A DNA stretch of 52,612 nucleotides from an uncultured Spartobacteria bacterium (GTDB lineage Bacteria; Verrucomicrobiota; Verrucomicrobiia; Chthoniobacterales; Chthoniobacteraceae): the NCBI GenBank assembly GCA_903919125.1, contig CAIXGS010000008.1, forward strand, positions 1 to 52,612, read 5' to 3'. Shown here piece after piece: positions 14,752 through 33,411 of the stretch. The notes beneath the pieces were generated by a model. That model was not told the origin of the DNA and did no database searches. It saw nothing but the letters and a program-made list of their open reading frames with translations. Every line of letters starts with the position of its first letter. Position 1 is the stretch's first letter. The position numbers were made by a program, and so were the translations under genes.

Positions 14752-14810
14752 CGCGTCCGAAAGTTACGGCCCGACAAGGGCGGATGTGGCACTGCCAAAA
14801 CTTTGAAACG

Positions 14811-15592: not shown

Positions 15593-17683
15593 CTACTTCG
15601 ATTCCATCTTCCAAACACCCTTCCAATTAGCGGGCGGGGCGGCCGCAAGCTCGACACAATGCTCGCTCAGAACCTGGCTGGCCTTGTCGTCGTACTTCAC
15701 CACCAAGGCGTCGAAAAGCGGCCGAGCCTCCTCAAACCGCCCAACCGCATACACCTCGTAAGCCTTCGCGTAGGCCTCACACAGCTCCGAATAATGAGGA
15801 GGGGTGCACGGGTTTTCACATTCGAACAACTGAATCGGATCGCTTTTCCCCTTCACAATCACTCTGTCGATCATCCGATGCATTCCAGGGTTTTTTAACT
15901 CGTTGAGCACATCACAAGAAACCAGAAGCCTCACCCCGTAATATTTGGTCAAAGCCTCAATCCGAGAGGCCGCATTCACAGCGTCGCCGACCAGTCCATA
16001 ATCTAGCCGTTTCGCGGAGCCCTTATTGCCGACCAGCACGTGCCCCCGATGCAGGGCCACGCCATACCCAAAGATTTTCTTTACCGCCTCGGGCAACTGG
16101 AGGCTCACCGTGTTCATACCCGTGATCAAAGCTTTCGCAGCCCGCAAGGCACTGTCTGGGCCGTCGGGCTGAGCCTGTGGCGCACCCCAATAGCTCAAAA
16201 ACTGGTCACCCAGAAAGTGCTCAAGGTTTCCCGCCTCTCGCATGATCGCGTTGGTCTGGACCTCAAAGACCTTGTTGAGCAGATCGAACATCCCCTGAGG
16301 CCCCAAGAGCTCTGCCAAAGGCGTGGAATTGCGCAAATCCGTAAGCAGCAGGGTGACATCTGCGTGCTTGGGCAGCATCGAACCGGGGTCTGAGAGAACG
16401 GCTTCCAACACTTTTGGGGAGAAATACAACCCCATGGTGTGCCTCAATTTCATTCGATCAAGGTGCTCCTGAAAGAAGTCGTAAAACAGGATGAGGATAC
16501 TGCTAATGCCCAGCACCAGAACGGGGACGGCCACGGGGATCACCCAGCCCTTGTCGTAACACCACTGGGCAATCACCCAATAAGCGCCCACGCACAAAAC
16601 CAGAGCCGCCAAGCGCTCACCGGGTTGGGAATTATGAAAACACAAGGCACCCGCGAGCAACCCAGCCAATAGGATCATCAAAAACACGGCGAGTTTTGGT
16701 ATCTCCCTTAGAAACTCATGGTTCAGCGCCGCCGCCATAATGTTAAGATGAACCTCCGGCCCGTTCATCTGGCGCTCTGTGAATGGCGTGTCGTGTTCGT
16801 CGTGAAAAATGCCCGCCGTGGGTCCAATCAACACGATTTTGTCGCGAAAAAATGCGCCATTGGCGTAGTTTTTTTGCCAGATATTCGGGCTCAACACGTC
16901 CCCAATCGGATGCACCTGATAACCAAATCCGGGCGCGTTTCCGTAGCGAAACCGTGTCGTTTCGAATGCCTCGGGCACCGCTTCAGGATGACCAAATTTC
17001 CGTACCGCCCTCGCCGCAAGCGACTCCATCACCACGGCGCCATCCACCACAAAGCCGGCTTGCGCACCAGTTTGGCGGAAGCGCGCGCGCCGCACCACTC
17101 CATCGAAATCCTTGGGGATGTTGACATAAGCCACCCGATCGTCCTGCACCAGTGCATCGGAGTCCGCTGCGGGCAACACCACGGAGTTCGGAGTGATGAG
17201 CTGCAGGAAATCGCCGCGCGGAGTCTTTTGTGGACTTATGGTGCACCCGATCACCACCTTATCCTTGTGCCGCAAAAGAGCTGCAGCCAGTTGCTCATCT
17301 CCTTCGTTGGGCGCACCGAAAATCAAGTCGAACGCGATCACCTTGGCGCCCGCATCGGCCAGTTTGTCGATCAACTCCGCCCAAACCGCCCGTGACCAGG
17401 GGAAGTTTTTCTGCAACGCCCGAAGCACAGGCGCTTTTTCAAGCGTCTCCTCGCTAAAGTCCGTATCTGCGTACTGCGGGCGGTCAATTCCAATGAGCAC
17501 CAACTCTGAGGCCACCGGCGTCTTTTTCCCCATCCGCGCTCGGATATCCTCAGTGAAGGTCTCCATCTGCTTGAGCGGGATGTAAGAAAACCCACGAAAC
17601 AAGCCGTCAAGAGAGAGCGCCAAAAACGTGCAGCTCAGGCAGATGAGCAGAAAAACCCACTGACGTTGGGGAAGTTTAATCAT
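15593..17683 (-). CDS. CHASE2-domain class III adenylate/guanylate cyclase
   Basis: Membrane cyclase that would make cAMP or cGMP in response to a periplasmic signal. The 696-residue product has an N-terminal helix (10-28), a periplasmic CHASE2 domain (about 40-320; ELVLIGIDRPQYADT and AGAKVIAFDLIFG are typical), three helices (about 330-400), and a catalytic domain from about 440. Metal-binding Asp residues are visible at D449 (LLLTDLRNST) and D493 (LGDQFLSYWGAP). KRLDYGLVGDAVNAASR holds the Lys558 and Asp561 expected for ATP selectivity and the transition-state Asn570/Arg574. All key residues appear present, so activity is likely. It is the third gene of an operon with a FecR-domain protein and an outer-membrane barrel, a combination seen with CHASE2 proteins elsewhere. 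A cyclic-nucleotide-binding redox protein is encoded just upstream. Confidence 0.9.
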   Translation of the reverse strand: MIKLPQRQWVFLLICLSCTFLALSLDGLFRGFSYIPLKQMETFTEDIRARMGKKTPVASELVLIGIDRPQYADTDFSEETLEKAPVLRALQKNFPWSRAVWAELIDKLADAGAKVIAFDLIFGAPNEGDEQLAAALLRHKDKVVIGCTISPQKTPRGDFLQLITPNSVVLPAADSDALVQDDRVAYVNIPKDFDGVVRRARFRQTGAQAGFVVDGAVVMESLAARAVRKFGHPEAVPEAFETTRFRYGNAPGFGYQVHPIGDVLSPNIWQKNYANGAFFRDKIVLIGPTAGIFHDEHDTPFTERQMNGPEVHLNIMAAALNHEFLREIPKLAVFLMILLAGLLAGALCFHNSQPGERLAALVLCVGAYWVIAQWCYDKGWVIPVAVPVLVLGISSILILFYDFFQEHLDRMKLRHTMGLYFSPKVLEAVLSDPGSMLPKHADVTLLLTDLRNSTPLAELLGPQGMFDLLNKVFEVQTNAIMREAGNLEHFLGDQFLSYWGAPQAQPDGPDSALRAAKALITGMNTVSLQLPEAVKKIFGYGVALHRGHVLVGNKGSAKRLDYGLVGDAVNAASRIEALTKYYGVRLLVSCDVLNELKNPGMHRMIDRVIVKGKSDPIQLFECENPCTPPHYSELCEAYAKAYEVYAVGRFEEARPLFDALVVKYDDKASQVLSEHCVELAAAPPANWKGVWKMESK

Positions 17684-17729: not shown

Positions 17730-18737
17730 CTAAAATTGGACGCGGAGGGAGAGTCCCATTCCGGTATCCACTTTCTGATAGTCTTCGATAGTGGGATCCT
17801 CGGAGCTACGTCCCTCGAAATTTACAAAGGCGCGCAGGGAAGCCTCGTTGCAGAGCGAATACGCCAGAACCACGCCGACTGTCTGCGTTAAATCTTTGCG
17901 TACGTGGTTGCGCGTGTACTGGGTGAACTGCGCTCTGTAAAACGTCTGAAAGCCAAGCTGGGGAAGCAATTCCCTCGAGTAGGTAACCGTCGCGGATTCA
18001 TCCACCCGATCGTAAAAGTCGGAGGTCACCGAGGTATTTGAGGGATCTAAATAGGTGATATGGCCGACCACTCCAAAGTTGGTCGTAATCGCGGATTTCT
18101 TACTCAGCTCAAAAGAGCGCTGGAGACTCAGATTCGGGGCGAACTCCGAGTAAAACTCAGTGTAAGAACCGTCGGTAGAAGTGAGCAGACGATTGTAGTC
18201 CATGCCTCCACCGACTAACCACTGCTCGCGAATAAGGTAGTGCCCCTGAAAAAACAAAGTACTGATATCAAAATCAGAGTCGTTAATGGTACTTTCGCTC
18301 CTTCCGCTCGCTATCCCGTAATTAAACTTTTGATGCCGATAGCCCGCTCTCGCTGAGAATTGGCCTCCGGGCACTTGCCATGCTGGAGGAGTCACGGCGA
18401 GTTGCACTGTGGAAATCATCATCGAAGAGTCCGTTTTACCCGTCTCAGTCAGGTAGACGTTGGAAGTAGAGCCGAATTGCACATCCGAGGAGGCTTCCAG
18501 CCAGTTATGGCGGGGCTTTTGACGGATGACGTTTTGGGGACCGACGTCTTTGTCCTCATCTTCGTAAAGCGAGGAAATCTCTTGAGCAGCAGGGGTCTGC
18601 AAACGGGCACGGAGATCCTGACGGCCCATTTGTTGAGTCGCTGTATCGATGCGGTTTTGGGCAACGGCAATTCCCGAAAGGCAGCACCAAGCCAGCGCCA
18701 CCATCCAGAAGCCTCGAAGGCTCACATGTAATTTCAT
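17730..18737 (-). CDS. Outer-membrane beta-barrel protein
   Basis: A 335-residue secreted protein. It has a signal peptide (residues 1-26, ending IAVAQ) and a short acidic N-terminal segment. From about residue 75 there are alternating amphipathic strands rich in Ser/Thr/Tyr/Phe, and it ends in Phe (GLSLRVQF), the usual C-terminal signal for BAM-dependent insertion. I cannot assign a substrate. It lies 18 bases after the FecR-domain gene and 46 bases before the cyclase. It may be the outer-membrane partner of a FecR/CHASE2 signalling module. Confidence 0.75.
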   Translation of the reverse strand: MKLHVSLRGFWMVALAWCCLSGIAVAQNRIDTATQQMGRQDLRARLQTPAAQEISSLYEDEDKDVGPQNVIRQKPRHNWLEASSDVQFGSTSNVYLTETGKTDSSMMISTVQLAVTPPAWQVPGGQFSARAGYRHQKFNYGIASGRSESTINDSDFDISTLFFQGHYLIREQWLVGGGMDYNRLLTSTDGSYTEFYSEFAPNLSLQRSFELSKKSAITTNFGVVGHITYLDPSNTSVTSDFYDRVDESATVTYSRELLPQLGFQTFYRAQFTQYTRNHVRKDLTQTVGVVLAYSLCNEASLRAFVNFEGRSSEDPTIEDYQKVDTGMGLSLRVQF

Positions 18738-18755: not shown

Positions 18756-20762
18756 TTAACGACCATTGGCGATTATTGTGATGTTTCGGGTCGTGCCAAC
18801 CGGTAACCCATTCGTTTGCAAATTCGCATTGGTGGTGTTGGAAGGAATCGGGACGCCGCCATACTTAACTCCATTAATGAAGTTAACGTGTAGCGGCACG
18901 GACGCCTGCCCAGTGTTGGGGTTTGGCGCAAGTTGTCCGTTGCTAGATTTCAGCGTGACAACGGAACCTGCGCTAAAGTCGACATTCGTTAAATTGATGG
19001 TTCTTGCGTCCAAGGAAATACTCGTCGCGTTGAGATTGGTATTAAGCGTTTGGCCGCCGACAAGGCTAATGACCTCGCCCGCCACCATGCTCAAGCTGGA
19101 GCCAACGGGCGCCGCCGATAACGTTCGTCCCCAGACACTCGTCATGGAAATGTCCCCTAGCGACTTGAAGGAAACATCGCCTCTCGCATAAACACTCAGA
19201 TTGCTGCCCGTGATGGTGCTCCCGCGGACGTCCACCGAACCGGAGCGGTTAAACAAAATGGAGTCGGTAAGGGTAACGGCGGAGTTGACCGTGGCATCCG
19301 CTATACCGAGCACGAAGGATTCAGCTTTCGCCACGAGAAAAGTCGTTGCCACGTTGATTGGCTTCCCAAGAATCCAGAGCAGCTTTTCAGTCGCTTTCGA
19401 TTCAGGCCCAATCGGCATGGCGAGCTCGGTGGTGAAGTTCGTCAACTGGCTAGGTGAAAGCGACAGTCCACCTCGTATTTCCAACAATTCATTTTGAGTC
19501 CTCATGTCGTTAATTGAAATGGCACCCGAAGCGGCGATTATTTTCACATCAATTAGCAAGTCTGGGAATACAAACTCAGCAACATTCCCACCTTGAGGGA
19601 AGTGCTCGAATGGCGCAGGCGCCTCCTCTCCCGGCAACAAAACGGTCGGAGGAAGAGGATCTTTCCCCTCTAATGTAAGGGTTTTGGCGAGCAAAATGCG
19701 GGTGGTCTTATCGCCATAATCAGATTTAAATTTGATGAAGCTAGTCTCCCCGAAAACAGAGGAAAGAGTCGAAGGCACACTCAACCCCGATGAGAGGGAC
19801 AGCCGACTTAGCAAACTTACCAAACTCAACGGTGTTCTGCCTGACCCAAGCAAACTGGTGCCCGGCTCCTTCCCACGCTGTCCGATAACTGAGACATCTT
19901 GACTTAAAGCAAAATTCACGTCGCCATCTGAGGGAAGTGAAATGATTCCTTTCGCCGCTTCGGTGGGACGTAATTCATTCCTACGCACGGGAGGAGGCCC
20001 GTTATCCTCCATTAACTGGTCGCCGCGCACCCTTAGATTAGTGGATTCAGCACGACCACTGGCGATCATGCGCTCCTGACGCTCGACAGAGTCCATCACC
20101 TTCCGCTCGGAGGCGATGGCTGTGCGAAAGCCCTTCATCAAGGCAGAGCCCGCCACTTGTTCTTTTAGACGAAAATTAAGGACGGGGCCGAAATCACTTT
20201 TTCCCGGAGCAACGACAGTGAGCTGGCCTGCGGTCACTGCCATGGAATTGCCGCCGGGCAGAGTGGCCTTCGCCTTGCCTTCCAAGACCAATAACTTAAA
20301 GCCTTTGTTCGCAGTCGCCGTCACAATCAGCGTTGTGCCCATGACCGCCGCTTGCGCCCCATCGGAAGCGATCACTCCCCCGCCCTTACCCTCGGGCGAA
20401 TGAAAAAGAATGCTGCCCTTTTGTAGGTTCACCTGTCGCTTGTCCGCAGCGAAGGAAAAGACGGTGTTTGCGCCCACGCGAGTCACCGTGCCGTCGGGGG
20501 CGACGAGTTCCGCCCGGGAATTAGCGCCCGTGGAAATCTGATCAGGCACCTTGAAGGTCTGATTGACGCTCGCCGGTCTGGAGCGCTGAGTGACGGCATC
20601 AATGATGACGACTTTGTCCACCACCTCTGTGAACTTCAGCGTATTAAGATTTTGCGGCGCAGCCCCTAGTGCGCTGGAGGCCGCCAGCAAGAGCGAGGCA
20701 AGGCAGGCGGCGGCGCGCAGCACCGCAGACATACGAAGCGGTAGAGGAGGCGAAATTAACAT
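18756..20762 (-). CDS. FecR-domain secreted protein with long beta-rich C-terminus
   Basis: A 668-residue exported protein. The signal peptide ends near residue 33; an alternative ATG at 20732 would start ten residues later, directly at the signal peptide. A FecR-like domain spans about 50-190: QISTGANSRAELVAPDGTVT, RVGANTVFSF and GSILFHSPEGKGG are characteristic, and VMGTTLIVTA is the second half. The remaining 450 residues carry Asn/Ser-rich, filamentous-haemagglutinin-like beta repeats (ISINDMRTQN, GSVDVRGSTITGSNLSVYAR), which suggest a beta-helix. It is the first gene of a three-gene operon with a barrel and a CHASE2 cyclase. In known systems FecR domains sense or relay periplasmic signals; the ligand here is unknown. 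Confidence 0.82.
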   Translation of the reverse strand: MLISPPLPLRMSAVLRAAACLASLLLAASSALGAAPQNLNTLKFTEVVDKVVIIDAVTQRSRPASVNQTFKVPDQISTGANSRAELVAPDGTVTRVGANTVFSFAADKRQVNLQKGSILFHSPEGKGGGVIASDGAQAAVMGTTLIVTATANKGFKLLVLEGKAKATLPGGNSMAVTAGQLTVVAPGKSDFGPVLNFRLKEQVAGSALMKGFRTAIASERKVMDSVERQERMIASGRAESTNLRVRGDQLMEDNGPPPVRRNELRPTEAAKGIISLPSDGDVNFALSQDVSVIGQRGKEPGTSLLGSGRTPLSLVSLLSRLSLSSGLSVPSTLSSVFGETSFIKFKSDYGDKTTRILLAKTLTLEGKDPLPPTVLLPGEEAPAPFEHFPQGGNVAEFVFPDLLIDVKIIAASGAISINDMRTQNELLEIRGGLSLSPSQLTNFTTELAMPIGPESKATEKLLWILGKPINVATTFLVAKAESFVLGIADATVNSAVTLTDSILFNRSGSVDVRGSTITGSNLSVYARGDVSFKSLGDISMTSVWGRTLSAAPVGSSLSMVAGEVISLVGGQTLNTNLNATSISLDARTINLTNVDFSAGSVVTLKSSNGQLAPNPNTGQASVPLHVNFINGVKYGGVPIPSNTTNANLQTNGLPVGTTRNITIIANGR

Positions 20763-20930: not shown

Positions 20931-23444
20931 TCACTTCCCGCTGGAATTACCCGAGAGGACAAGCTGCAACAATTCGTCTCCAGTGTAACGATCTGCAGCC
21001 CCATGAGGGCAGGAGGAGACGCAGCGCGGTTCGGGCGTGTCCTTGTTCCCTTCCGCATCGCAGAGATCGCAGGCCACGGCCTTGGGTTGAGCCAACCGGA
21101 AGTGATGAGAAGACGAGTCTGGCGCATTGGATTTCGGCGCCGCGTTGTGTTCATTGGGCACCATAAAGATGCTGCCATACGGACAATTATTGGCGCAGAG
21201 ACCACATCCAATGCAGTGGTCTTCGATGACGATCTGGAGATGTTTTCCTCTGTGAATGGAGTCCACCGGACACCCCACCATACAATGAGCCTCAACACAG
21301 GAGCGGCACGAAGTGGCCACCATGAAGTTGCCCAGACGCATCCCGTCCCGAAGCAAACGACTGACAGGCACTCCGTGGGAATGAGTCCCATGCTGCTCAA
21401 CGCAACCCTTAGTGCATTCGTCGCAGCGGATGCACAAGTCCATGTTCAATGCCAGAATGCTGCGCCCCTCGTAAAGTCCCTGACTTACGTAATTGTCCAC
21501 GATGGGATTCATCTGGCTGTCCCCCTTCAGAAAACCGAGCGAACGCTCAATTAAGTGCCTCCGCAAAGTGGGAAATTCGCGTAGCATCGGGAGGAAGTCC
21601 TCACGACTGAGGCGTGCCACTTCCAATTGGCCAAGGGCCGAGCAACTCGCCGAACGCACTCCAATGGGAAGCGCCGTGGCGAGGTCAACCCCCGAATCAT
21701 TGAGGATCGGCAACATGGCACGCTCCACTTCGTCTACGGTCCTGTGGGCGTCTCCCGCTGCCAGCGCCAGCATCCCAATTTCGCCAATCATCCCGCCTGG
21801 ACCACGGGAAACCACTCGGGATTCCTCATCGTAGCGTCGAATCCCGATTCGCGTATAACCCAAACGGACAATATAAAGGCAATCCGCCGGTTCCCCTTGC
21901 TCAAAGAGGACCTGCCCGGGATTGATGCGCAAAAAGGTAATGCGATTGCGCATGTACTCGATGATGCGAGCGTACTCCTCCTTAGGAATGCCTTGGAAAA
22001 TGCTAGAAGATTGCAGCACCAAGTTAAGAGCTCGATCGCGGTACGCTTTCTCAAACTTCTGACGCTGACTGGGCAAGCGCATCAATCGATCCAGCACATT
22101 GCGGCGAATTTCCCACACTTCCCCGTCCTCGAGCACTTTGAGGTCCGCGCTTCTAGGCGAACCGCTCAAACAGGACATTTCCCCCACGATCACGTCTTCA
22201 GAAGTCACCTCGACCTCAAAAATAACCTCTTTGCGAGACTTGCCCATCCAAGCACTAAAGGTACCCTTCGCCCCTGGAAGCTCAGGCTTGAACACCGTAG
22301 TGAGATAGCGCCCAGAGCGCATAATAAACGCAGTATTACCTGCTTCCCCCTGCTGCATGAGCATGCTTCCTGCACGAACTCTGCGGCGCATCACCAACCC
22401 CTCCTGCCAGAGCAAAAACTTGGGCGGAATCCCAAAAAAGAGGGGATCCTTGAGCAGTTCAGCAGCCGAAATTTTCTCCGCAGCGCCGTGTTTAGTCGCC
22501 GGCTTCACGGCGGTCACAGGATTGAAGGTAATGGCGCTAGTGGGGCACGAAATCATGCATTCCCCACACTGCACACAGTCGCTCTCGCCCATGGGTTCAT
22601 CCAAGTCGAAGCCGATTGAGGCTTGAGCCCCCTTCCCTGTGCGCCCGATAATGTTGTTGCCCTTCACCTCGTTGCACGCGCGTACGCAACGATCGCAAAG
22701 CACGCAAGCACTGTGGTCGGTCACAAACACAGGGGACGAGGTGTCCAACCGCTGTCTGTGCGCGATGGCCTCGGGCTGTAACGGCGCGAAAACGTCGAGT
22801 TTGAGGCGCGAGGGGTCGGCGCCGCAGCGGTCTACCAAACGGCCCAATTCGTTAAACGGAGCCAGTTCCCTGTCGAGTTCAGCGCGTGGAGCCGGCTTAA
22901 GATGATCCACCGCGAGCAACTCCGTAAGGGTACGCACCGATTTGCGCACCCGTTCCCCATCGGCACCGGGGTCCTCCATGGTAAACACCTCCATGCCCTC
23001 CTTGACTTGATGCTGACAGGCAGGGAGCAACTTTCGCTCCGCCGCGCGCTTCCCACGTTTTTGCCCGTAAATTTGCACCACACAAAGCCGGCACACCGCC
23101 ACGGGCTTCATGTGCGCCTGATGACACAACACTGGGATGGGGATTTTGACCTCGTCCCCGGGTTGCTTCACGTAAAGCTTGGTGGCGGCGTCGTAAATGG
23201 TGGTGTAGCGAGGAGTGGTGCGGCCCTCGAGGTCCAGGATGATGTTTCCATTGGCGTCCTTGGAGGGCTCGGCCATGGGAACAGTAACGGTTTGACCGTC
23301 GATTTGCAGGGTGACGCTCCTGCTGTAATCCCGCTCCACAGGCGCGTCTAGACGCACCAACTGGCCGTTGATATCGCGGCTAAATAGGCCCTCGTCGTCG
23401 TCTTCGCGAAGCAGATGGGCGCCGGGTTCGTTATTCGGTAGCAT
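20931..23444 (-). CDS. Seven-cluster iron-sulfur protein with two cyclic-nucleotide-binding domains
   Basis: An 837-residue cytoplasmic-type protein with no signal peptide. Domains in order: a NuoG/HydA-like [2Fe-2S] domain (C107, C118, C121, C143); a degenerate NuoG His-Cys3 segment (about 170-210) that keeps a His but has no Cys cluster motif; a 2x[4Fe-4S] ferredoxin unit (C247/250/253/257 and C290/293/296/300); cNMP domain 1 (about 335-465) with cassette GEMSCLSGSPRSA including the phosphate-binding Arg431; cNMP domain 2 (about 475-635), whose cassette is split by about 35 residues between GEIGML and VRSASCSALG; and a DmsB/HybA-type unit with 16 Cys for four [4Fe-4S] clusters (C671-C812). 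It follows the NuoE-NuoF gene by 11 bases. It probably accepts electrons from that flavoprotein. The cNMP domains suggest control by cyclic nucleotide, which is inference. Confidence 0.88.
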   Translation of the reverse strand: MLPNNEPGAHLLREDDDEGLFSRDINGQLVRLDAPVERDYSRSVTLQIDGQTVTVPMAEPSKDANGNIILDLEGRTTPRYTTIYDAATKLYVKQPGDEVKIPIPVLCHQAHMKPVAVCRLCVVQIYGQKRGKRAAERKLLPACQHQVKEGMEVFTMEDPGADGERVRKSVRTLTELLAVDHLKPAPRAELDRELAPFNELGRLVDRCGADPSRLKLDVFAPLQPEAIAHRQRLDTSSPVFVTDHSACVLCDRCVRACNEVKGNNIIGRTGKGAQASIGFDLDEPMGESDCVQCGECMISCPTSAITFNPVTAVKPATKHGAAEKISAAELLKDPLFFGIPPKFLLWQEGLVMRRRVRAGSMLMQQGEAGNTAFIMRSGRYLTTVFKPELPGAKGTFSAWMGKSRKEVIFEVEVTSEDVIVGEMSCLSGSPRSADLKVLEDGEVWEIRRNVLDRLMRLPSQRQKFEKAYRDRALNLVLQSSSIFQGIPKEEYARIIEYMRNRITFLRINPGQVLFEQGEPADCLYIVRLGYTRIGIRRYDEESRVVSRGPGGMIGEIGMLALAAGDAHRTVDEVERAMLPILNDSGVDLATALPIGVRSASCSALGQLEVARLSREDFLPMLREFPTLRRHLIERSLGFLKGDSQMNPIVDNYVSQGLYEGRSILALNMDLCIRCDECTKGCVEQHGTHSHGVPVSRLLRDGMRLGNFMVATSCRSCVEAHCMVGCPVDSIHRGKHLQIVIEDHCIGCGLCANNCPYGSIFMVPNEHNAAPKSNAPDSSSHHFRLAQPKAVACDLCDAEGNKDTPEPRCVSSCPHGAADRYTGDELLQLVLSGNSSGK

Positions 23445-23455
23445 GAAAAGGCCTC

Positions 23456-25510
23456 CTAAGAGTTAATTTGCGGGCTCGCCTTGGGTGCAGTGAGGTGTTT
23501 GGCAACGTCTGCTGGAAAAAAGTTTATCAACGTCCGCAAAGGCGCAGGGACCGACCTGCCCAACCCACAGATCGAAGACATCTCGATCGCCCCAAGCAGA
23601 TCTTTCATCATGGGCACCAACTCCTCTTTCCAAGTCGTGGCGTCAATTTTTCCGGCCAACAAACTGGCGGCTAGAGAAGTCATTTTCTGCGACCCCAAGC
23701 GGCAAGGCACGCACTTACCGCAGGATTCGTTGCGGTAAAACTCCATGGAATAAAGAGCCTGCTCAGCCATGTCGCGGCCCTCCGCGTAAACCACAAGTCC
23801 CGCGCCCAAGGCTTGGGTCGGGCTCAACGCTCGGAACAAGTTGAGTTCCAATTCCAAATCAAGAATATCGATTTCTGGGGAAGCCGGATCAATCCCGCGA
23901 CGGCCAGCCAGCGCAATCCAAGCCTTGTTGTTGACGTGATCCCTAGGCAAACCGGCACCTGCTTTGAGTTTGGCCGGCAAAAAGCCGCCCGAGGGACCAG
24001 AGGGCGCGAACGCTTTCATGGGCAGGTCATTCACGATCCCCCCGCAGTAGTTTTCTCCGTAAACGAGCTCACGCAACGTCATGCCCATGGGCACTTCGTA
24101 CACACCCGGTTTTTTGACATCGCCTGAAATCGAGAAAAAACGCCGCCCCTTCCAACCGTTGACCCCGAGGCCCGCGTAAGTGGCACCGCTTCGCAAAAAG
24201 ATGTAAGGCATCCACGCGTAGGTTTCCACGTTGCTGACAATCGTAGGGAGATCTTGTAACCCGTTGGTTTCAAGTTTCGGCGGCATGTTTCTGGGTTCGC
24301 CGCGCCGATCGGACATCGCCTCAATTAAGGCGCTCTGTTCCCCGCAAATATAGCCTCCCGGACTCACAAAAACGCTCACAGGAAACGGCCGACCCAAAAC
24401 CGGAGCATCGCTCCCACACATCCCAAGCTCCTCCGCACGAAGAATCTCAGCGCGACAAGCCTCAATTTGTTCGGTGTATTCGTGGCGGATATAAATGAAG
24501 CCTTGAGAAGCGCCGGTCACGAGTCCGGCCATAATAACGGCCTCGACCACAAGATGAGGCGTGCGCAGCAAAATCTCCCTGTCCTTGAAAGTGCCCGGCT
24601 CACTCTCGTCCCCATTGACCACCACAAACGCCCGAACGTCAGTCCCACGAACGCGCGCAGTGCGCACAGCGTCACGAACATCCCGCAACTTCTGCGATAC
24701 GGGGATTCCAGCGCCACCCATGCCGCGCAAATCTGCCGCCTCAAACTCCGTCAAAATTGCTTCAGACCAACCGCCCAACTCTTTGCTCTTCGCCCAATCG
24801 GAGTCGGACTGCCACGCCAGAACCGCTCGGTCGACTTCCGCATCCTCTTGATTGGCGACCTTGTCCTCTCCGACCGCTTTCTGGCGGAAAGCCTCCAGTT
24901 GATGCGGTCCGAGATGAAACTTCTCTGCGGCGAGCTTGGATGCCGCCAAAATTGAATCGTTTCGAGCGATCACAACTTTGCTAACCGCCGCGTAGTCGCA
25001 AGGTTTGCCTTCGTAAGGATCCGCCTGAAAAGTCGGCGAGCTTGCAGCGTCACGTGCATCGCTGTCATGGGCGGCTCGGGAACCTTGCAAAGCAGCTCGC
25101 ACGACGCCCTCCAGTTCAGTGCCACTACGCCCAAGATGGTAGGACTCGTGCTCGTCACCCGCCGTCGAAAGACACGCGGCGGGGGCCCGGTCACAGCGGC
25201 CTAAACACGAAACGCCGTGCACCTCCACTCCTTCTGGGAAAGCGCGTTTCAGCGCATCGGTCGTTTGGCGGGATCCGGCCATTTGACAAGCCATATCCCG
25301 ACACACATGAACACTCACCTTCGCAGGGGCTTTAAATCGGAAATGGGGGAAAAAACTCCCGACCGCCTGTAAACGCGCCATCGGAATGCCGCTTTGCTGG
25401 GAAAACTGTTCCATGGCAGCACTCTGCAGGTATCCAAACTGATGCTGGATGCGATGCAACGCTGGGACAACTACCGGGGCGTAAGGAGGCTGGGGCGCCG
25501 AAGCACTCAT
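23456..25510 (-). CDS. NuoE-NuoF fusion, NADH-binding flavoprotein
   Basis: Cytoplasmic NADH-oxidising (or NAD-reducing) module. The 684-residue product starts at the ATG at 25510, overlapping the upstream cytochrome stop as ATGA; a longer frame exists, but the overlap and domain start favour this ATG. NuoE-like thioredoxin-fold [2Fe-2S] part: C70-x4-C75 and C102-x3-C106. NuoF-like part: RGMGGAGIP (262-270) and NGDESEPGTFKDR (299-311) for FMN/NADH, GGYICGEQSALIEAM (385-399), an SLBB region, and the [4Fe-4S] Cys set C597/C600/C603/C648 (ESCGKCVPCRLG). All ligands are intact. No other Nuo subunits or [NiFe]-hydrogenase subunits lie nearby, so this is not a standard complex I or HoxFU operon. 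It is flanked by a decaheme cytochrome and an Fe-S protein. Confidence 0.92.
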   Translation of the reverse strand: MSASAPQPPYAPVVVPALHRIQHQFGYLQSAAMEQFSQQSGIPMARLQAVGSFFPHFRFKAPAKVSVHVCRDMACQMAGSRQTTDALKRAFPEGVEVHGVSCLGRCDRAPAACLSTAGDEHESYHLGRSGTELEGVVRAALQGSRAAHDSDARDAASSPTFQADPYEGKPCDYAAVSKVVIARNDSILAASKLAAEKFHLGPHQLEAFRQKAVGEDKVANQEDAEVDRAVLAWQSDSDWAKSKELGGWSEAILTEFEAADLRGMGGAGIPVSQKLRDVRDAVRTARVRGTDVRAFVVVNGDESEPGTFKDREILLRTPHLVVEAVIMAGLVTGASQGFIYIRHEYTEQIEACRAEILRAEELGMCGSDAPVLGRPFPVSVFVSPGGYICGEQSALIEAMSDRRGEPRNMPPKLETNGLQDLPTIVSNVETYAWMPYIFLRSGATYAGLGVNGWKGRRFFSISGDVKKPGVYEVPMGMTLRELVYGENYCGGIVNDLPMKAFAPSGPSGGFLPAKLKAGAGLPRDHVNNKAWIALAGRRGIDPASPEIDILDLELELNLFRALSPTQALGAGLVVYAEGRDMAEQALYSMEFYRNESCGKCVPCRLGSQKMTSLAASLLAGKIDATTWKEELVPMMKDLLGAIEMSSICGLGRSVPAPLRTLINFFPADVAKHLTAPKASPQINS

Positions 25511-27030
25511 GGTTTCGATGGGACAGGGGTGGTAGGAGAGGCCGGATGAACCGCCGCCTCTAAAACAGGAGGCGTGAAGGAGCTGTGGAAGTGATGGCAG
25601 TTCTGGCAAGAGAACTTCACTCCCTCTTTTCCGGTGCTGGTGAGAGGCTGGTGACACTCTACGCAAGACTGCTGGGTGGGCAGCAAAATATCACTGGTCA
25701 GCGTGCTCTTCAACGCTGCGCCATGGCAGTCCGTGCAGGCGGATTGCTTGTGGGGTTGGTGATTGAATGCGCCCTTCGCAAGCCAACGCGTAGGAGTAAG
25801 CGGCGGTTGCACTTCAGGGGACGAACCGGCGTCACCACCCGTGACGGTGTGGCACTTGGCGCACTCCGTCAAAAACTTGGGCTTTCCAGAGCGCATCAGG
25901 AGTTCGCCGCCCAAATCCTGTGGATCACCCTGCAGGAACACGCGCTTTACCATATCATCAACCGAAAATAGCCCTCTTCGCTGCAAGGCCTCCCGCTCCT
26001 CCTTGACCCTGAGGGAAACCGCCACAGGCTCGCTCACTCCCGAGGCTCGGACACTGGATTCGATAGAAGAGTCTAATCCAGCGAGGAACAGCTTAACGGT
26101 TCTAGAGTCCCCGTGGGGAATATGCAGATCGGGAAGTGACTGCTGAATTTGAAGTGAGTGGCACTCTTGGCAGTGCTTTTCATAACGCACCGGCTGATAG
26201 AATACGCCGTTGGCATCCGGTTGGTGACAAGAGGCGCAATCCAACTTCGCATTGTTGAGCTTAGGAATGTCGCCCCGAAAATGCCGCGCATGATTGAACT
26301 TGAGATCGGAGGGATCGCGAGCTTCGGGGCTTTCATAACCAAAACTAGGGTGCCCATGGGCGAAGCTTGCAAAGGCGGCCAACGACTCAGGAGCACGTGC
26401 AGAGGGAAGAAAAAGACGTAGTCCCTCACCAAGGTCGACAGTTTGCCCCCCCGACACAGCGGAGGTGGTTGCGCTAGAAGGTGTCCGCTTGGGCAACGTG
26501 CGGGAGTCGTGGAGGCGCGTGAGAGAACCGTGGCAGTCGGTGCAACTCTGGTTGGAGGGAAGTGCCATCCGGTGAGGGCCGGCGTGTTCCCGGTGGCAAC
26601 TCGCGCAAGAAGACGCATGAACCAGCCCTTGAGAGGCTTGGTTGAACCCCACGGTCATGATCTGGGGAGCGTGCAAACCCGTGCCGGGGTGGCACGTCAT
26701 ACACGCAGCATCCATGGCTTCCAAGGAACTCATGGACGCAAGCTTTGTTATATTTTCGAACAAATCCGCACCCAACGACTCCCCAGAACCTGTGTGACAC
26801 GTCTCACAGCGGTCCACTAAATGAGCATGATTTTGAGAAAGTGGGCCGGGACTGAACTTTTTTGGAGACCCCCATTTGCCAGAAATAAAGACGCCGAGCG
26901 CACACAGCGCCACAACGAGGCTGAAACACAAAAACCGGAGACGGCGCCAATAATGAGGCCGCCTGAAGTACCCCAAATTACCGGCGTACCCCTTGGAAAT
27001 ATTTTTCTGAGAATCAGGATTTTCTGGCAT
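25507..27030 (-). CDS. Membrane-anchored decaheme cytochrome c
   Basis: The product is 507 residues from the ATG at 27030. It has one N-terminal membrane helix (about 31-50, RFLCFSLVVALCALGVF), uncleaved in appearance, then a periplasmic region with ten CXXCH haem-attachment motifs: CETCH, CMTCH, CASCH, CTDCH, CASCH, CQECH, CAKCH, CTDCH, CVECH and CQNCH. Extra His residues between them can serve as distal ligands. It starts 5 bases after the cytochrome b gene and its stop overlaps the NuoE-NuoF start. Likely role: periplasmic electron carrier docked to the inner membrane, next to the cytochrome b. An in-frame start further upstream (27147) would overlap cytochrome b and is less likely. Confidence 0.93.
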   Translation of the reverse strand: MPENPDSQKNISKGYAGNLGYFRRPHYWRRLRFLCFSLVVALCALGVFISGKWGSPKKFSPGPLSQNHAHLVDRCETCHTGSGESLGADLFENITKLASMSSLEAMDAACMTCHPGTGLHAPQIMTVGFNQASQGLVHASSCASCHREHAGPHRMALPSNQSCTDCHGSLTRLHDSRTLPKRTPSSATTSAVSGGQTVDLGEGLRLFLPSARAPESLAAFASFAHGHPSFGYESPEARDPSDLKFNHARHFRGDIPKLNNAKLDCASCHQPDANGVFYQPVRYEKHCQECHSLQIQQSLPDLHIPHGDSRTVKLFLAGLDSSIESSVRASGVSEPVAVSLRVKEEREALQRRGLFSVDDMVKRVFLQGDPQDLGGELLMRSGKPKFLTECAKCHTVTGGDAGSSPEVQPPLTPTRWLAKGAFNHQPHKQSACTDCHGAALKSTLTSDILLPTQQSCVECHQPLTSTGKEGVKFSCQNCHHFHSSFTPPVLEAAVHPASPTTPVPSKP

Positions 27031-27035
27031 GATCT

Positions 27036-27947
27036 TCAGGGAGTTTGCGTGACCAGAAAACGGATTCCCGCCCAAGCGTGCCAAATTGTCACAATTATCA
27101 GAACCAGCGAGGTGGGAACGTGCACCAAAAGCCAGCCGTGAAGCCAATGCTGAAACCTCGTTTGCAAGTCCGTTAGCCGTCGACTCTCACACCAGGCTTC
27201 GATCTCATCCACCCGAGGACGCCATTCAGGATGAACGTTCACCCTCAAAATTTTGAACATCTCAGCCGCCAACTGAGCGTTCCCAAGATGCAGATTACGC
27301 ACCCCTTTCTTCACCGAGAGAAACGGCAGGCATTCGTCATCTAAAAAACGCCCAAGAATCTGAGGTGAAGTGTCGCCACTCAAACCGAGAGCATTGGTCT
27401 CCGCCACTTGAGTGCGCAATTCGGTCGCGGCACGCAAAAGCGATTCCCGAACAAAAGGAATTTGTTCAAATACCACCTCCCGAGGAAGATGCTCACGCAT
27501 AATCGAGGGCAAAAAATGTTGTAAAATCACCCCAAAAATTCCGCTTACCATCACCAATGTGTAAAGCGCCAACAACCCCATGGTGTGCGGCCCTCCTATC
27601 CGAAAGCCCGAATGCAACACCACCAGAGGGATCGTCAAAACGGTCAGCCACAAATGGGCCTTCAGCCACGTTTGTACACTGCCAATGGGCCACAACCGCT
27701 TCTTCTTGCGCACCCCCAGCGCCGCCGCAAACAGAAAAATCCCTAAAGCCACGATGCCGAACAACAGTCCAAGAGGTGTTCCTCCGTAGTTTGCGCGGAG
27801 GGGTGGAACAGGGCCCAAAACAGCGGGAAACTTTACACCGCGTGGCAAAAATTCGGGATGCAAGTTTAATGAATAGGAGATCGCTGCAATAACAGTTAAT
27901 GCAGTAACTAACAAAATCCAAGGTAAGTGCGAACGATCAATCCTCAT
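27036..27947 (-). CDS. Membrane diheme cytochrome b-like protein
   Basis: A 303-residue integral membrane protein with about five helices: 9-28, 57-79, 93-113, 122-144 and 272-296, and a soluble stretch of about 125 residues before the last. Two helices each carry a His pair 14 residues apart: H98/H112 (KAHLWL, VLHSGF) and H276/H290 (LLVHVP, TIWHAW). This is the pattern of a bis-His, two-haem b bundle as in cytochrome b and ferric-reductase-type proteins. I do not recognise a named family. It is the first gene of the minus-strand operon with the decaheme cytochrome, NuoE-NuoF and the Fe-S/cNMP protein, so it is the best candidate for moving electrons across the inner membrane. Confidence 0.72.
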   Translation of the reverse strand: MRIDRSHLPWILLVTALTVIAAISYSLNLHPEFLPRGVKFPAVLGPVPPLRANYGGTPLGLLFGIVALGIFLFAAALGVRKKKRLWPIGSVQTWLKAHLWLTVLTIPLVVLHSGFRIGGPHTMGLLALYTLVMVSGIFGVILQHFLPSIMREHLPREVVFEQIPFVRESLLRAATELRTQVAETNALGLSGDTSPQILGRFLDDECLPFLSVKKGVRNLHLGNAQLAAEMFKILRVNVHPEWRPRVDEIEAWCESRRLTDLQTRFQHWLHGWLLVHVPTSLVLIIVTIWHAWAGIRFLVTQTP

Positions 27948-28208: not shown

Positions 28209-29348
28209 ATGAAAGTACCCAAAACCCTTCTTCTTATCTCGCTTACGTGCTTGGTTTTGCCGACTTTCGCCGCAGATTCCGGCAACCCTGCCCAAAGCGG
28301 AAAATTCACAGGCACTCAGTCCTGCGGCACTACCGGGTGCCACGGCGGCGGCACCATTCATAACGAATCAATCATTTTTGAGCGGAAGGATCCCCATGGT
28401 GTCGCCTACGGGATTCTCGGTAAAGGAACCTCCCTGCGCATCGCGGAGGCCCTCGGCATCAAGGGGGACCCGGCAAAAGACATCCAGTGTAACGTCTGCC
28501 ACGCTCCCATGCAGGGGGTAGACGCCGAATTCTTCGTCAAAGGCCTCAAGCCCGACCGGGGCGTGGGATGCGAATCGTGTCACGGTGCGGCTGAAAACTG
28601 GCTGAGGTTCCACACCCGTCCAGACGTTGATTTTCAACAGATTATCGCCGCTGGGATGCGCGATCTCAATGACATTTACGGGCGTGCCAACTCGTGCGTT
28701 GGCTGTCATCTCAATCTGGACGAGTCACTGCGCAAAGCGGGGCATCCCGAGCTGTTTTTCGAACTCGACGGCCAGTGTGCCGCCCAACCACCGCACTACC
28801 GCGACGCCCGTCCCTCGCTGGGGCCTCGCTCTTGGCTCACAGGCCAGGCAGCTGCTCTTCGGGAAATGAGCTGGAAACTTTCACTTAAAGGGGACGAAAA
28901 CTTTCTCCCTCGCTGGAAAGCTCTGGTGTGGCTGCTACAAAAAACCGAACTTGGCCGACAGGAACTCCCTGCAACTGAGGACTTCGCCGCCATGCAAAAG
29001 GCAGCTGACGGCTTGGCTCGGAAAGCCGCCCCAAAATTGTGGTCCACCCCCGCAGTGCAAACCCAACTCCAAGAATTCTCAGCGCTTCACACCGAGTTTG
29101 AAGTCCAAAATTCCGACAAAGCCCTCCTCCAACGAAAGGCGGAAGTCTTAGTGCCCGCCCTCGATCGACTATGGCGCGAACTCCGCAAAACTGGCATCGC
29201 TCAATCGGAGTGCGAAACCTCCATCCAAACCCTTCATCTTCTGGCGATGGACCACGAAGACTTCGATCCCGCTAAGTTCTCAACCGCGCTGGGTAAACTG
29301 AAAGTCTCGCTGACCAACCTAAGCGCGGCAGACAGCAAGAAAAAATAA
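28209..29348 (+). CDS. Cytochrome c554-like tetraheme cytochrome
   Basis: A 379-residue exported protein with a signal peptide (1-21, cleavage after TFA). It has four haem-binding motifs: CGTTGCH (a CX4CH spacing, unusual), CNVCH, CESCH and CVGCH, all in the first 180 residues. The region FERKDPHGVAYGILG and the pattern of spacing resemble the cytochrome c554/c' family of small periplasmic multihaem carriers. The second half (about 215-379) has no haem motif and looks helical. Likely a soluble periplasmic shuttle between the inner-membrane decaheme cytochrome and the outer-membrane components. It is transcribed away from the cytochrome b operon. Confidence 0.85.
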   Translation: MKVPKTLLLISLTCLVLPTFAADSGNPAQSGKFTGTQSCGTTGCHGGGTIHNESIIFERKDPHGVAYGILGKGTSLRIAEALGIKGDPAKDIQCNVCHAPMQGVDAEFFVKGLKPDRGVGCESCHGAAENWLRFHTRPDVDFQQIIAAGMRDLNDIYGRANSCVGCHLNLDESLRKAGHPELFFELDGQCAAQPPHYRDARPSLGPRSWLTGQAAALREMSWKLSLKGDENFLPRWKALVWLLQKTELGRQELPATEDFAAMQKAADGLARKAAPKLWSTPAVQTQLQEFSALHTEFEVQNSDKALLQRKAEVLVPALDRLWRELRKTGIAQSECETSIQTLHLLAMDHEDFDPAKFSTALGKLKVSLTNLSAADSKKK

Positions 29349-29446: not shown

Positions 29447-31108
29447 TTACTGCGGGTTACGCGGGAACTTCACGTAAGGAAGGCGCGCTCCCCGGTAAAC
29501 AAGAGTGTCGGACCGGATTGCATCGGCTGCCAAAAAGTTGGCGGTTCCGCTCGCACAAATCATGTCATCCTGATCCACGCCATCGCCTGAAACACCGATG
29601 GCTCCGATCAATTCTCCATTTCGATACAAGGGCAGACCACCAGGGAAGATGGTCATTCCATTGGGAAGATTCGTGTTGCCGGGATAAGTTAATGGCGCTG
29701 AGGACGACAAGGGAGACGTTTTCAAAGAAACCGCCTCTTGAAGTCCGAAAAACGGTCCCCATGCCCGACCATCTATGCCCGGTGGATAAAAGCGTTGGGC
29801 AAGGAAGCCCACGGCCCGAGTGCTCATCGCAGTGGTCTTATTCGAGAAAAACACGGCGGTACGGGCCTTCTGCGCACTCACATCCCAACTAAACATAGTC
29901 GCCTCCCCGACCCTGAAGACGCCAAGTACAGCGGGGGGCTCGCCGTCGCTGTTTGGATTGTTCACCACGGTGATGAATGTTTTGGCGCGCGTCCCCAAGG
30001 GCAATCTGATTCCCGCGCGAATGATGCTACAACGCTGCGCGGCGAGCGTAAGGATACTGGTCACTTCCGCCGCCGTAAGCCGCGCGGCAGCTCCTGCCCC
30101 AATAGTTCCCGGAAGTGGATCGGCCTGAATGAGCTGACGAGTCTCCCCCGCAACCCCTCCAAGACTGCTTGGTCCGAGGGTGCTGAAGTCATAACTAGCT
30201 GGAGAACCCTGAGGAGTGTAGACGAAGCTGTCGACAGGATCCGTGACCACGCTTCCTACTGCCGGAAATGGAAGAGGAGACGGAGGCTCGGGCAATTTAG
30301 AAATATTGCCGATCACATAAGGCACACGGATTCCACCGAGGAGCACATTCGTCGCCAAGATTTTAGTTGAAGGCCGAAACCCACTTTGGGCGGCAAGGGC
30401 CACATTTTCATCGGTATCCGCGGGCACTTTGAAGCCAGCCGTGGAATTTGTTGGAGGGGTGCTACTGAGCAAAAAGGCAGCTGGACTCAGATTTGAAGGG
30501 CTTGAATCGCCCGTCACCCCGACTCCGCCCACCAGTTCTCCGTTAATGTACAGAGGAACGCCTCCGGGCGAATCATCAAGCGAGGTGAACGGTACGGCTG
30601 GGGTTCTGGCTCCAGGCGACCCGACGACGCCTGCTGAACCATTAAATCCTGCGGGGATCCTCTTGAAGCGATTGACGTCAGAAAAAAAGAGGTTCGAAAA
30701 ACCCACTCCTACCAGAGGACCCGGAGGAGAGTTTCGTATCCCCGGAGGAAAATGCTGCTGGATGATGTACCCTGCGGTGCGCGAGGTGAATGCATTTTCG
30801 TTGCTGCTCAAAAATGCGGCCGTCCCCGCTCTGGAAACAGCAGAGGCGATCACTCCCTGAGCTGGCGCGGTGGTGCCAACATTACGCACGCCCAGTACAA
30901 AGCCCTCGCGATCCACCACAGCCACCACAGACTGGGAACTATACTTGGAAGCGTAAGCCGCCCCCTGATCAAGGATCCGGATCACGTCCGGCCCGCTCAA
31001 CGACTGGGCCGCCGATGCATCGCAAGTCAAAGCGCCCAACAGTACAAAAGCAGCTTTGGAGATTTGCTCGCCGAGAGAGCTTGAAAAATTTCGAATCGCA
31101 TCTGGCAT
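29447..31108 (-). CDS. Exported protein with two HbpS/GlcG-type (haem-binding-like) domains
   Basis: A 553-residue protein with a signal peptide ending near residue 34 (CDASAAQS). Two HbpS/GlcG-like domains are present. The first is at about 37-200 (LSGPDVIRILDQGAAYA, VVAVVDREGFVLGVRNVG, GGVPLYINGELVGGVGVTGD). The second is at about 340-545 (LTAAEVTSILTLAAQR, FPGGLPLYRNGELIGAIGVS). The linker between them is low in conserved motifs. Some relatives such as HbpS bind haem or degrade it to sense iron and redox state; others are uncharacterised. Lying between cytochrome genes and divergent from the porin, it could act in haem handling or redox sensing, which is inference. Confidence 0.8.
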   Translation of the reverse strand: MPDAIRNFSSSLGEQISKAAFVLLGALTCDASAAQSLSGPDVIRILDQGAAYASKYSSQSVVAVVDREGFVLGVRNVGTTAPAQGVIASAVSRAGTAAFLSSNENAFTSRTAGYIIQQHFPPGIRNSPPGPLVGVGFSNLFFSDVNRFKRIPAGFNGSAGVVGSPGARTPAVPFTSLDDSPGGVPLYINGELVGGVGVTGDSSPSNLSPAAFLLSSTPPTNSTAGFKVPADTDENVALAAQSGFRPSTKILATNVLLGGIRVPYVIGNISKLPEPPSPLPFPAVGSVVTDPVDSFVYTPQGSPASYDFSTLGPSSLGGVAGETRQLIQADPLPGTIGAGAAARLTAAEVTSILTLAAQRCSIIRAGIRLPLGTRAKTFITVVNNPNSDGEPPAVLGVFRVGEATMFSWDVSAQKARTAVFFSNKTTAMSTRAVGFLAQRFYPPGIDGRAWGPFFGLQEAVSLKTSPLSSSAPLTYPGNTNLPNGMTIFPGGLPLYRNGELIGAIGVSGDGVDQDDMICASGTANFLAADAIRSDTLVYRGARLPYVKFPRNPQ

Positions 31109-31200: not shown

Positions 31201-33411
31201 ATGAGCCCACCCACCCACCCGAAATTCTTCACATTAAAACGCCTCATCGCGCTCAGTTGCGTCGCTTGGGCAGCGGCGTCGCCTGCTGGAGATTCACAGG
31301 GGGTGGGTGCAGGAAAGCAATCGAAGCTGCCCCCTGTTTTCAACCCTGATCCCGGCGCGTGGGCCACGCCCTCCTCTCAAACTGTCGCAGACACCGTATC
31401 CCCGCCGCCTCTTGCCGAGGCCATTAGAACGCTCGGACGCCTAACTCCTATCGACATTGCTCGCGAACCGCTCGCCGCCAAGGAGCGAGCCCCTGGCGAA
31501 TTTGCGGCGCACGACTATCCCTTGGCGAAAGACGGGCGTGGTTTGCTGAATTTAAGCACCGCCGTTCCTAATCGCTGGGCGGTGCCTCTCCCGCACTGGC
31601 AGCGTTATTTAGATCCCAGCATTGAAACGCCTTACTTGCAGGAAAAAACAAGACTCTGGCACCCCTACCAGCAAAGCCGTCTCAAGGGAGATGTGCCAAT
31701 TTTTGGACAGGATATTTTCACCAATATATCAGCGAAGAGCTTCACGTTTTCTGAGTTCCGTAGTCTTCCAGTTCCTAGCGGGGTCAGCACTGTCAGCCCA
31801 GGTCGATCCGAGTTTTTTGGGAATGGCAATCAATCTCTGATTTCCACCGACACTTCCGTAGCCATCGATATCTTCAAGGGGGAAACCTCCTTCAAACCTG
31901 TTACTTGGCTTCTGCGCCTCAACGCAGTCCAAAACAATAACTGGGTCCGCACCCGCGAAAACAACCTCCTCAACCCCGACCCTCGGGGCAGCGACTTCCA
32001 AGACACAACCAGAGCTCCGAATACCACGGGTTTCGGATCCTTCTCGGGGAGCACGGGTAGCTTTAACCCAACCATCACCGCAGGGTCCTTCGGAAGCACG
32101 CTCAATCCAGCCAGTTCCGGCACATCGGGAAACGTTTTAGACCAACTCAAGAACCAAGGGGCGACCCCTGCCTCGAGCAACCAGACCCGCTACACTTATC
32201 GGCAAAAAGATAAGCTTTCCCTCCAAGAGGCCTTCTTGGAAATCCATCTGCGCGACCTATCAGATAACTACGATTTCATCAGCAGCCGGTTCGGTATCCA
32301 GCCCTTTTCCTCCGACTTCCGCGGGTTCGTCTTCTCAGACAGCAACCTTGGTGCGCGGATCTTCGGCAACGCCTCCAACAACAAGTCTCAATATAACCTG
32401 TTGTATTTTAAAATGCGGGAGAAGGACACCTACTCCGAGCTCAACACCTTCGACTCCAGACAACAGCAGGTTTTTATCGCCAACGTCTATCGCCAGGACT
32501 TCCTCACCAAAGGTTACACCGCCCAACTCAGCTTACACGCTAACCTAGACGGAGACAGCACCAAATACGACCGCAACGGGTTCCTAGTGCGCCCCGCCCC
32601 CCTAGGCACCGTCCCACAAAATGAGGCTGACGGCTCTCCCCTAGGACACGATCTACAATCCTACTACCTCGGCTGGGCTGGGGACGGGCACATTGGAAAA
32701 CTCAACATCAACCACGCCTTTTACCAAGCCTTGGGCCGCGACGAATTTAACCAACTCGCTGGACGCAGCGTTTCCATCAACGCTCAGATGGCCGCCCTTG
32801 AACTGAGCGTCGACAGAGACTGGGTGCGCTGGAAATTTTCCGGCTTCTACGCAAGCGGCGATTCCAACCCCACCGATGGCGTTGCCCGAGGCTTCGACTC
32901 AATTATAGACAACCCCGTCTTTTTTGGTGGCCCCTTCAGCTGGTACGCGCGCGAAGGTATAAGCCTGCCGGGTACTGGAGTCAACCTCAAGGAGCGCAAC
33001 TCTTTAGTACCCAGCCTGCGCACCAGCAAAACACAAGGCCAGTCCAACTTCGTCAACCCCGGAGTCTGGATCATTGGCGCGGGCACCGATGTGGACGTCA
33101 CCCCAAAACTCAGGGCTTTTGGCAACCTCAACTACGTCCATCTTGCGGAAACCGCTGCCGTCAAATACGCCCTGCAAACCGACAAGGCACGCTCCGATCT
33201 GGGTGTGGACGCCAGCGTGGGAGTCAAATACCGACCATTTTTAACCGAAAACGTGATCGTCTCATTCGGAGTCGGCCTCTTTTTCCCAGGCGGCGGTTAC
33301 CGAGACTTGTACCGGCAAAACACTGTGCAAGTTCCCGGCTACGACTCGGGCTCAGGTAAGGTGGACCCCTGCCTTTACAACGCCCTTTTGACCCTGACGC
33401 TTAATTACTAA
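31201..33411 (+). CDS. Large outer-membrane porin of the cytochrome cluster
   Basis: The product is 736 residues from the ATG at 31201, which has an AAGGTG upstream; longer frames run back into the divergent HbpS-like gene and are not credible. The signal peptide is 1-28. A soluble N-terminal part of about 150 residues is followed by a long beta-barrel: many amphipathic strands (SRFGIQPFSSDFRGFVFSD, QYNLLYFKMREKDTYSELN), Ser/Gly-rich loops, and a C-terminal Tyr (LTLTLNY). It ends 5 bases before the decaheme-LVIVD gene, so the two are cotranscribed. By analogy with MtrB/PCC porins it may sheathe a multihaem cytochrome across the outer membrane. Sequence similarity to MtrB is not evident by eye. 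Confidence 0.78.
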   Translation: MSPPTHPKFFTLKRLIALSCVAWAAASPAGDSQGVGAGKQSKLPPVFNPDPGAWATPSSQTVADTVSPPPLAEAIRTLGRLTPIDIAREPLAAKERAPGEFAAHDYPLAKDGRGLLNLSTAVPNRWAVPLPHWQRYLDPSIETPYLQEKTRLWHPYQQSRLKGDVPIFGQDIFTNISAKSFTFSEFRSLPVPSGVSTVSPGRSEFFGNGNQSLISTDTSVAIDIFKGETSFKPVTWLLRLNAVQNNNWVRTRENNLLNPDPRGSDFQDTTRAPNTTGFGSFSGSTGSFNPTITAGSFGSTLNPASSGTSGNVLDQLKNQGATPASSNQTRYTYRQKDKLSLQEAFLEIHLRDLSDNYDFISSRFGIQPFSSDFRGFVFSDSNLGARIFGNASNNKSQYNLLYFKMREKDTYSELNTFDSRQQQVFIANVYRQDFLTKGYTAQLSLHANLDGDSTKYDRNGFLVRPAPLGTVPQNEADGSPLGHDLQSYYLGWAGDGHIGKLNINHAFYQALGRDEFNQLAGRSVSINAQMAALELSVDRDWVRWKFSGFYASGDSNPTDGVARGFDSIIDNPVFFGGPFSWYAREGISLPGTGVNLKERNSLVPSLRTSKTQGQSNFVNPGVWIIGAGTDVDVTPKLRAFGNLNYVHLAETAAVKYALQTDKARSDLGVDASVGVKYRPFLTENVIVSFGVGLFFPGGGYRDLYRQNTVQVPGYDSGSGKVDPCLYNALLTLTLNY

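Follow-up and report, generated by a model that had tools for sequence, protein, structure and literature searches.

Results

A tight operon encodes an iron-sulfur protein with two cNMP-binding domains

The DNA examined, referred to here as the window, is a stretch of 52,612 nucleotides from an uncultured Spartobacteria bacterium. An open reading frame of 837 residues occupies positions 20931..23444 of its minus strand (read 23444-20931), exactly where the original prediction had placed it with no strand given. It opens with an ATG closely preceded by an AGGAGG Shine-Dalgarno motif. Since its hydrophobic segments are all too short for a membrane helix, the product is probably cytoplasmic.

While this single gene was all that the original prediction had considered, we found it to be a member of a conserved cluster of NADH dehydrogenase, cytochrome b, and multiheme cytochrome genes. 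It stands last in a tight minus-strand operon (neighboring genes overlap or are 5 to 11 bases apart), following a membrane protein (27036..27947), a decaheme cytochrome c (25507..27030), and a NuoE-NuoF fusion (23456..25510). By profile matches, the fusion has [2Fe-2S] thioredoxin-like, FMN/NADH, and [4Fe-4S] domains. The decaheme cytochrome, predicted to be membrane anchored and periplasmic, contains 10 CxxCH motifs, as do the intact copies of its homologues. No Pfam family matched the membrane protein, AlphaFold2 (AF2) modeling with fold comparison returned generic helical bundles only, and a profile search found no solved relative. Its assignment as a probable diheme cytochrome b therefore rests on four invariant histidines, H98, H112, H276, and H290, which form two H-x13-H pairs, the pattern that two b hemes would call for. 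Two verrucomicrobial homologues (L142, 10384-11702, and L143, 10391-11777), both from loci with the short form described below, carry a long Pro/Ala-rich insertion between helices.

Upstream of the operon lie a divergent cytochrome c554-like protein (28209..29348, plus strand), with four heme motifs in its relatives, and an HbpS-like secreted protein (29447..31108, minus strand) that neighborhood comparison showed to be linked in Acidobacteriota as well. These are followed by a secreted protein that may be an outer-membrane barrel (31201..33411, plus strand), with partners 44 to 49% identical beside the module in other phyla, and a 1347-residue cytochrome (33417..37460, plus strand) with 10 CxxCH motifs and LVIVD repeats. 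The latter is distantly ExtM-like by profile match, is about 50% identical across phyla, and usually adjoins a homologue of the secreted protein. A barrel test of the 31201-33411 product found no barrel family and an amphipathic-strand z of about 0. The multiheme cytochromes encoded together at the locus are thus a 10-heme, a c554-like, and a second 10-heme protein. On the other side, 168 bp downstream of the 837-residue gene, neighborhood annotation placed a FecR-domain protein (18756..20762), then a secreted, possible outer-membrane protein (17730..18737), and then a CHASE2 sensor joined to a class III nucleotide cyclase (15593..17683), all on the minus strand. The gap between the 837-residue gene and the FecR-domain gene had no terminator or sigma-70 promoter pattern.

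The set of NuoF, FeS/cNMP protein, cytochrome b, and decaheme cytochrome recurred, in the same or shuffled order, at most loci with enough flank in three phyla. We saw no ion-pumping subunit among the conserved neighbor genes, and the genes next to the 837-residue gene included no molybdenum or hydrogenase catalytic subunit. A plasmid search gave one partial, distant match only. Cytochrome bd subunit II was not found in a search of the source genome, which says little.

Seven predicted clusters are conserved across three phyla

By motif, 28 cysteine ligands are predicted to hold one [2Fe-2S] and six [4Fe-4S] clusters, and the two cNMP-binding domains are placed between clusters 3 and 4. The seven sites follow the order originally described, and 28/28 ligands are invariant among 16 aligned full-architecture sequences. 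The [2Fe-2S] site (residues 101-155, 22980..23144) matched Fer2_4 at a Pfam E value of 1.3e-7, with its four cysteines, C107/C118/C121/C143, invariant in 16/16. Profile matches and alignment then assigned two HoxU/HydA/FdhA-like [4Fe-4S] sites to residues 242-308 (22521..22721), with ligands C247/C250/C253/C257 and C290/C293/C296/C300. Together these make up a NuoG/HoxU-type head (Fer2_4, Fer4_9; HoxU profile E value of 1.2e-28). At the C terminus, residues 667-817 (20993..21446) form a DmsB/HycB/HybA-type unit of four [4Fe-4S] sites, C671/674/677/681, C713/716/721/725, C744/747/750/754, and C792/795/808/812. This unit matched the HydN, FDH3 beta, and HycB profiles, with its motifs in the usual DmsB/HycB order. 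All of these features are on the minus strand.

HoxU and NuoG heads contain a His-Cys3 [4Fe-4S] site that would be the eighth here; by alignment, none of its ligand cysteines is left in the 837-residue protein. In acidobacterial relatives the site survives in broken form (DHPxPCARQ...GDCELE), and Pfam still detected NADH-G_4Fe-4S_3 in 8/17 family members.

Several other identities were rejected. Against complex I subunit NuoG, the protein scored 54 bits where the equivalog cutoff is 470, and Pfam found no molybdopterin domain. A complex I or hydrogenase subunit of any kind fails on scores far under the cutoffs and the missing catalytic subunit. A chance cysteine pattern is ruled out by the invariance of the ligands among relatives that are 34 to 37% identical in other phyla, and a fusion artifact or pseudogene is ruled out by dozens of genomes in three phyla with the same architecture.

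Structure prediction served us in part. The AF2 model of the whole protein, built from 17 sequences, was poor (pLDDT 57.5, pTM 0.40) and usable for the cNMP domains alone, so cluster-to-cluster distances could not be measured.

The cNMP domains keep the residues expected to hold a nucleotide

Both central domains were confirmed as cNMP folds. PF00027 (cNMP_binding) matched in two stretches with a whole-protein E value of 1.7e-25 and was found in 17/17 homologues. Domain 1 (about residues 340-456, 22077..22425, minus strand; PF00027 stretch 22077-22265) has the near-canonical cassette GEMSCLSGSPRSA, and its R431, singled out in the original prediction, is present in 20/20 homologues. Domain 2 (about residues 477-643, 21513..22014, minus strand) was placed by Pfam, alignment, and fold match. 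Its cassette, GEIG...R597-SA, does carry the long insertion described earlier, of about 40 residues, but this is confined to Verrucomicrobiota, with a shorter or partial version in Tautonia; in Acidobacteriota the cassette is short and canonical (GEIGLL-x-RTA). Compared by structure, the AF2 model of domain 2 matched cAMP- or cGMP-bound domains of SthK, HCN, and PKG at Z scores of 16 to 18. Tandem PKA regulatory subunits ranked first in a sequence search, and a profile search also matched the mycobacterial Pat acetyltransferase model.

Folds of this kind in bacteria frequently bind other ligands or nothing (PMC2246266), so we considered whether these domains are structural or assembly modules, for docking or dimerization, that have lost nucleotide binding and sit in an unregulated NADH:cytochrome oxidoreductase. 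The insertion in the verrucomicrobial cassette would fit such a role, as would the constant fusion of the pair right before the four-cluster unit. So would the glycine between beta2 and beta3, an allosteric position reported to coevolve with the cassette arginine in CNB domains (PMC2246266): domain 1 keeps it as G369 in 19/20 homologues, while domain 2 has alanine in 19/20. However, the ribose-holding glutamate and the phosphate-holding arginine of both domains (E422 and R431; E555 and R597) are invariant in 20/20 aligned homologues from three phyla, which argues for retained binding. Candidates for its loss are found elsewhere, in the short forms of a deep acidobacterial sister group (L104-L116, about 35 to 42% identity), where the family profile hardly recognizes several of the cNMP regions.

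Each cassette also contains one cysteine that is not a cluster ligand, C425 (20/20 homologues) and C601 (19/20), and these may be redox-responsive thiols. Such conservation would suit a sensor working in the opposite sense, in which nucleotide binding follows the redox state of C425/C601 or of the clusters. We consider this very unlikely, since the conserved neighbors form a full electron transfer chain that starts at NADH and ends in the membrane, and a Pfam search of the 837-residue protein found no effector or DNA-binding domain.

Full and short forms are about equally frequent

The original prediction proposed looking for the same architecture in other Verrucomicrobiota and in Planctomycetota. 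The full form is present in both and also in Acidobacteriota, in about 22/213 genomes of the same order as the source, at least 7/343 genomes of a planctomycete sample, and 5/396 of an acidobacterial sample. About as frequent is a short form, cNMP-cNMP-FeS4, which has no NuoG-like head and whose 16 cysteines, those of the four-cluster unit, are invariant as well. In every member, full or short, the cNMP pair is directly N terminal to the four-cluster unit. Short-form loci have no NuoF but retain the membrane protein and the decaheme cytochrome. At one locus (L019, 28-1595), on a contig of 3.3 kb, the FeS/cNMP gene runs in two overlapping frames, from either a frameshift or an assembly error.

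A tree of the shared part requires a switch from one form to the other about five times, at least two of these on well-supported branches, and groups the verrucomicrobial full form with the planctomycete Tautonia. Because the acidobacterial head has its nearest sequences, 56 to 59% identical, in the N termini of FdhA-like molybdoproteins of other acidobacteria, it was probably acquired from a formate dehydrogenase-type enzyme along with its NuoE-NuoF partner.

A nucleotide cyclase is linked to the module in several lineages

In the source genome (4.34 Mb), we counted four genes for class III cyclases, along with three cNMP proteins. One of the cyclases is that of the window, three genes downstream of the 837-residue gene on the same strand, an arrangement maintained in near relatives among the matches listed. 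It has the metal-binding aspartates (D, GD) and the transition-state N..R, while the substrate-specifying lysine is replaced by histidine (LEHFLGD), as in the near relative L009. Directly downstream of its cyclase, L009 encodes a 234-residue protein with a single cNMP domain (14505-15209); no counterpart was recognized in the window.

The linkage is clearest in Acidobacteriota, where cyclases are scarce: one lies within 11 kb of the full-length gene in 7/12 genomes and is the sole cyclase found in 6 of those 7. Against an expectation of 0.09, P is about 1e-11 at ±12 kb, a distance picked after the data were seen, and 1.3e-5 at ±5 kb, both uncorrected for kinship among relatives that are not fully independent; counting three independent cases alone, P is 1e-4. 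The linked cyclases vary in type (FHA-GAF, CHASE2, and other) and in position, which argues against a single inherited accident. They retain the catalytic N/R and the lysine that cyclases acting on ATP typically have, which makes cAMP the more probable ligand of the acidobacterial modules. Other cNMP proteins in these genomes are alternative possible targets of the cyclases. In Verrucomicrobiota, where each genus was represented by about one genome, the cyclase is adjacent in 3/11 (P = 0.03, a weak excess). An adjacent cyclase was found in 0/8 planctomycete genomes and, among the matches listed, in 0/15 short forms. Several of the genomes compared are drafts. Domains that had lost their nucleotide would leave the acidobacterial linkage without a reason, and for this and the invariant binding residues we regard the purely structural role as unlikely.

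Discussion

We lean toward a reading in which the 837-residue protein serves a membrane complex as its cytoplasmic electron wire. Under the control of a cyclic nucleotide, the complex would carry electrons from NADH to the periplasm or outer membrane. A conduit from NADH to the cell envelope is the natural reading of a gene kept in the company of NuoEF, a cytochrome b, and multiheme cytochromes. The NuoE-NuoF fusion would oxidize NADH through its FMN and clusters and pass electrons to the [2Fe-2S]/2x[4Fe-4S] head and on to the DmsB-like unit. From there, they would cross the diheme-b membrane protein to the periplasmic decaheme cytochrome and reach, through further multiheme cytochromes, an acceptor at the outer membrane or outside the cell. 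We infer this order by analogy with the wiring of NuoEFG, FdnHI, and Ext/Pcc.

Intact-looking cNMP domains, neighbors for NADH oxidation, chains of heme proteins, and, in some genomes, an adjacent cyclase that is the only one found suggest that in these cells a cyclic nucleotide acts directly on respiratory electron flow. The ligand of the tandem domains would be cAMP or a different cyclic nucleotide, produced by the class III cyclase encoded beside the complex in several lineages. Because the pair always immediately precedes the four-cluster unit, the simplest control would be a nucleotide-driven change in how that unit is arranged or docked against the head or the membrane, turning the complex up or down. 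The original prediction of a gated redox chain is supported in its layout and, given the conserved binding residues and the acidobacterial cyclases, in its suspicion of cyclic-nucleotide control. The support does not extend to a chain “interrupted” by sensors: in short forms the cNMP pair has nothing before it, which means that the electron path could bypass the sensors, and the general role of the pair would be control of the four-cluster unit. We likewise infer complex formation, nucleotide binding, gating, the direction of flow, and its physical path. Electrons entering from the periplasm or outside could instead reduce NAD+ with the nucleotide as a switch, as the identical parts list would serve and sequence fixes no direction, but we think this very unlikely, because such reverse transfer would need energy coupling, with no ion-pumping subunit seen among the conserved genes, and because electrons leaving NADH for hemes at the usual multiheme potentials run downhill in the outward direction.

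More tentatively, the outward, nucleotide-controlled conduit could be narrowed to a respiratory complex, running from NADH to the outer-membrane cytochromes, on which cAMP from a cyclase encoded beside it acts directly as the allosteric regulator of rate. The alanine of domain 2 at the coevolving glycine, the histidine of the window cyclase, the other cNMP proteins of the acidobacterial genomes, the planctomycete count, and the weakness of the verrucomicrobial excess all count against nucleotide control of the conduit in general.

In bacteria, cAMP is known mostly for effects on transcription, through CRP. Shewanella, for example, uses it to control outer-membrane cytochrome genes through transcription (PMC4417206). 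If our reading is true, a second messenger would act on electron flow itself, quicker than any transcriptional response. The hosts, from three phyla, live in soils and lakes and may use humics or metals for respiration, and the 837-residue protein with NuoEF would supply such chains with a module for NADH entry.

Comparison with known systems

The layout had been put forward as one with no characterized example, and our search of the literature, which covered few subscription papers, agrees, with no description found of the fused protein or of cNMP domains with ferredoxin and NuoF in Acidobacteria. Among the matches listed, no solved structure spans both iron-sulfur parts and the cNMP pair; the molybdopterin oxidoreductase 9bov_A aligned as a single stretch over residues 228-468.

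The diaphorase modules of NAD-dependent formate dehydrogenase, NuoEFG, HoxU, and HydA share with our locus the NuoE-NuoF fusion and the head of one [2Fe-2S] and two [4Fe-4S] clusters. In contrast to them, the 837-residue protein has no Mo, NiFe, or FeFe site but a cNMP pair and four-cluster unit instead, and the His-Cys3 site is lost in Verrucomicrobiota and broken in Acidobacteriota. The DmsB, HybA, HycB, and FdnH subunits have the identical order of four-cluster motifs, and the partner, as in FdnHI, is a membrane protein, here a probable cytochrome b; however, the unit is fused behind two cNMP domains and has no molybdenum or hydrogenase catalytic subunit next to it.

The Geobacter extHIJKLMNOPQS conduit, as far as described in the portions of PMC5877670 and PMC6148476 consulted, also groups multiheme cytochromes with a cytochrome b in the inner membrane and a protein in the outer one; the counterparts at our locus are a probable cytochrome b and a possible outer-membrane protein. 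The 1347-residue cytochrome matched the ExtM profile at an E value of 6.6e-20, far under the equivalog cutoff. The Geobacter locus encodes a Rieske protein, and those portions describe no NADH dehydrogenase or cNMP protein there. Putative porin-multiheme clusters of freshwater Verrucomicrobia (PMC5615132), from the same phylum, resemble ours by description in having a secreted protein beside multiheme cytochromes, and the main text of that paper nowhere mentions cyclic nucleotides.

A cNMP domain and an enzyme also share one chain in the mycobacterial Pat acetyltransferase and in the Bact_Pyrredox tandem-CNB oxidoreductases (PMC2246266). The latter join tandem CNB domains to a redox domain but, unlike the 837-residue protein, have no Fe-S wire; this pyridine nucleotide-disulfide oxidoreductase is one of the 30 CNB families in the 2007 census, which includes no Fe-S family (PMC2246266). 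Taken together, the parts of the system are of known kinds and their assembly is new, and if the gating is true, so is the kind of control.
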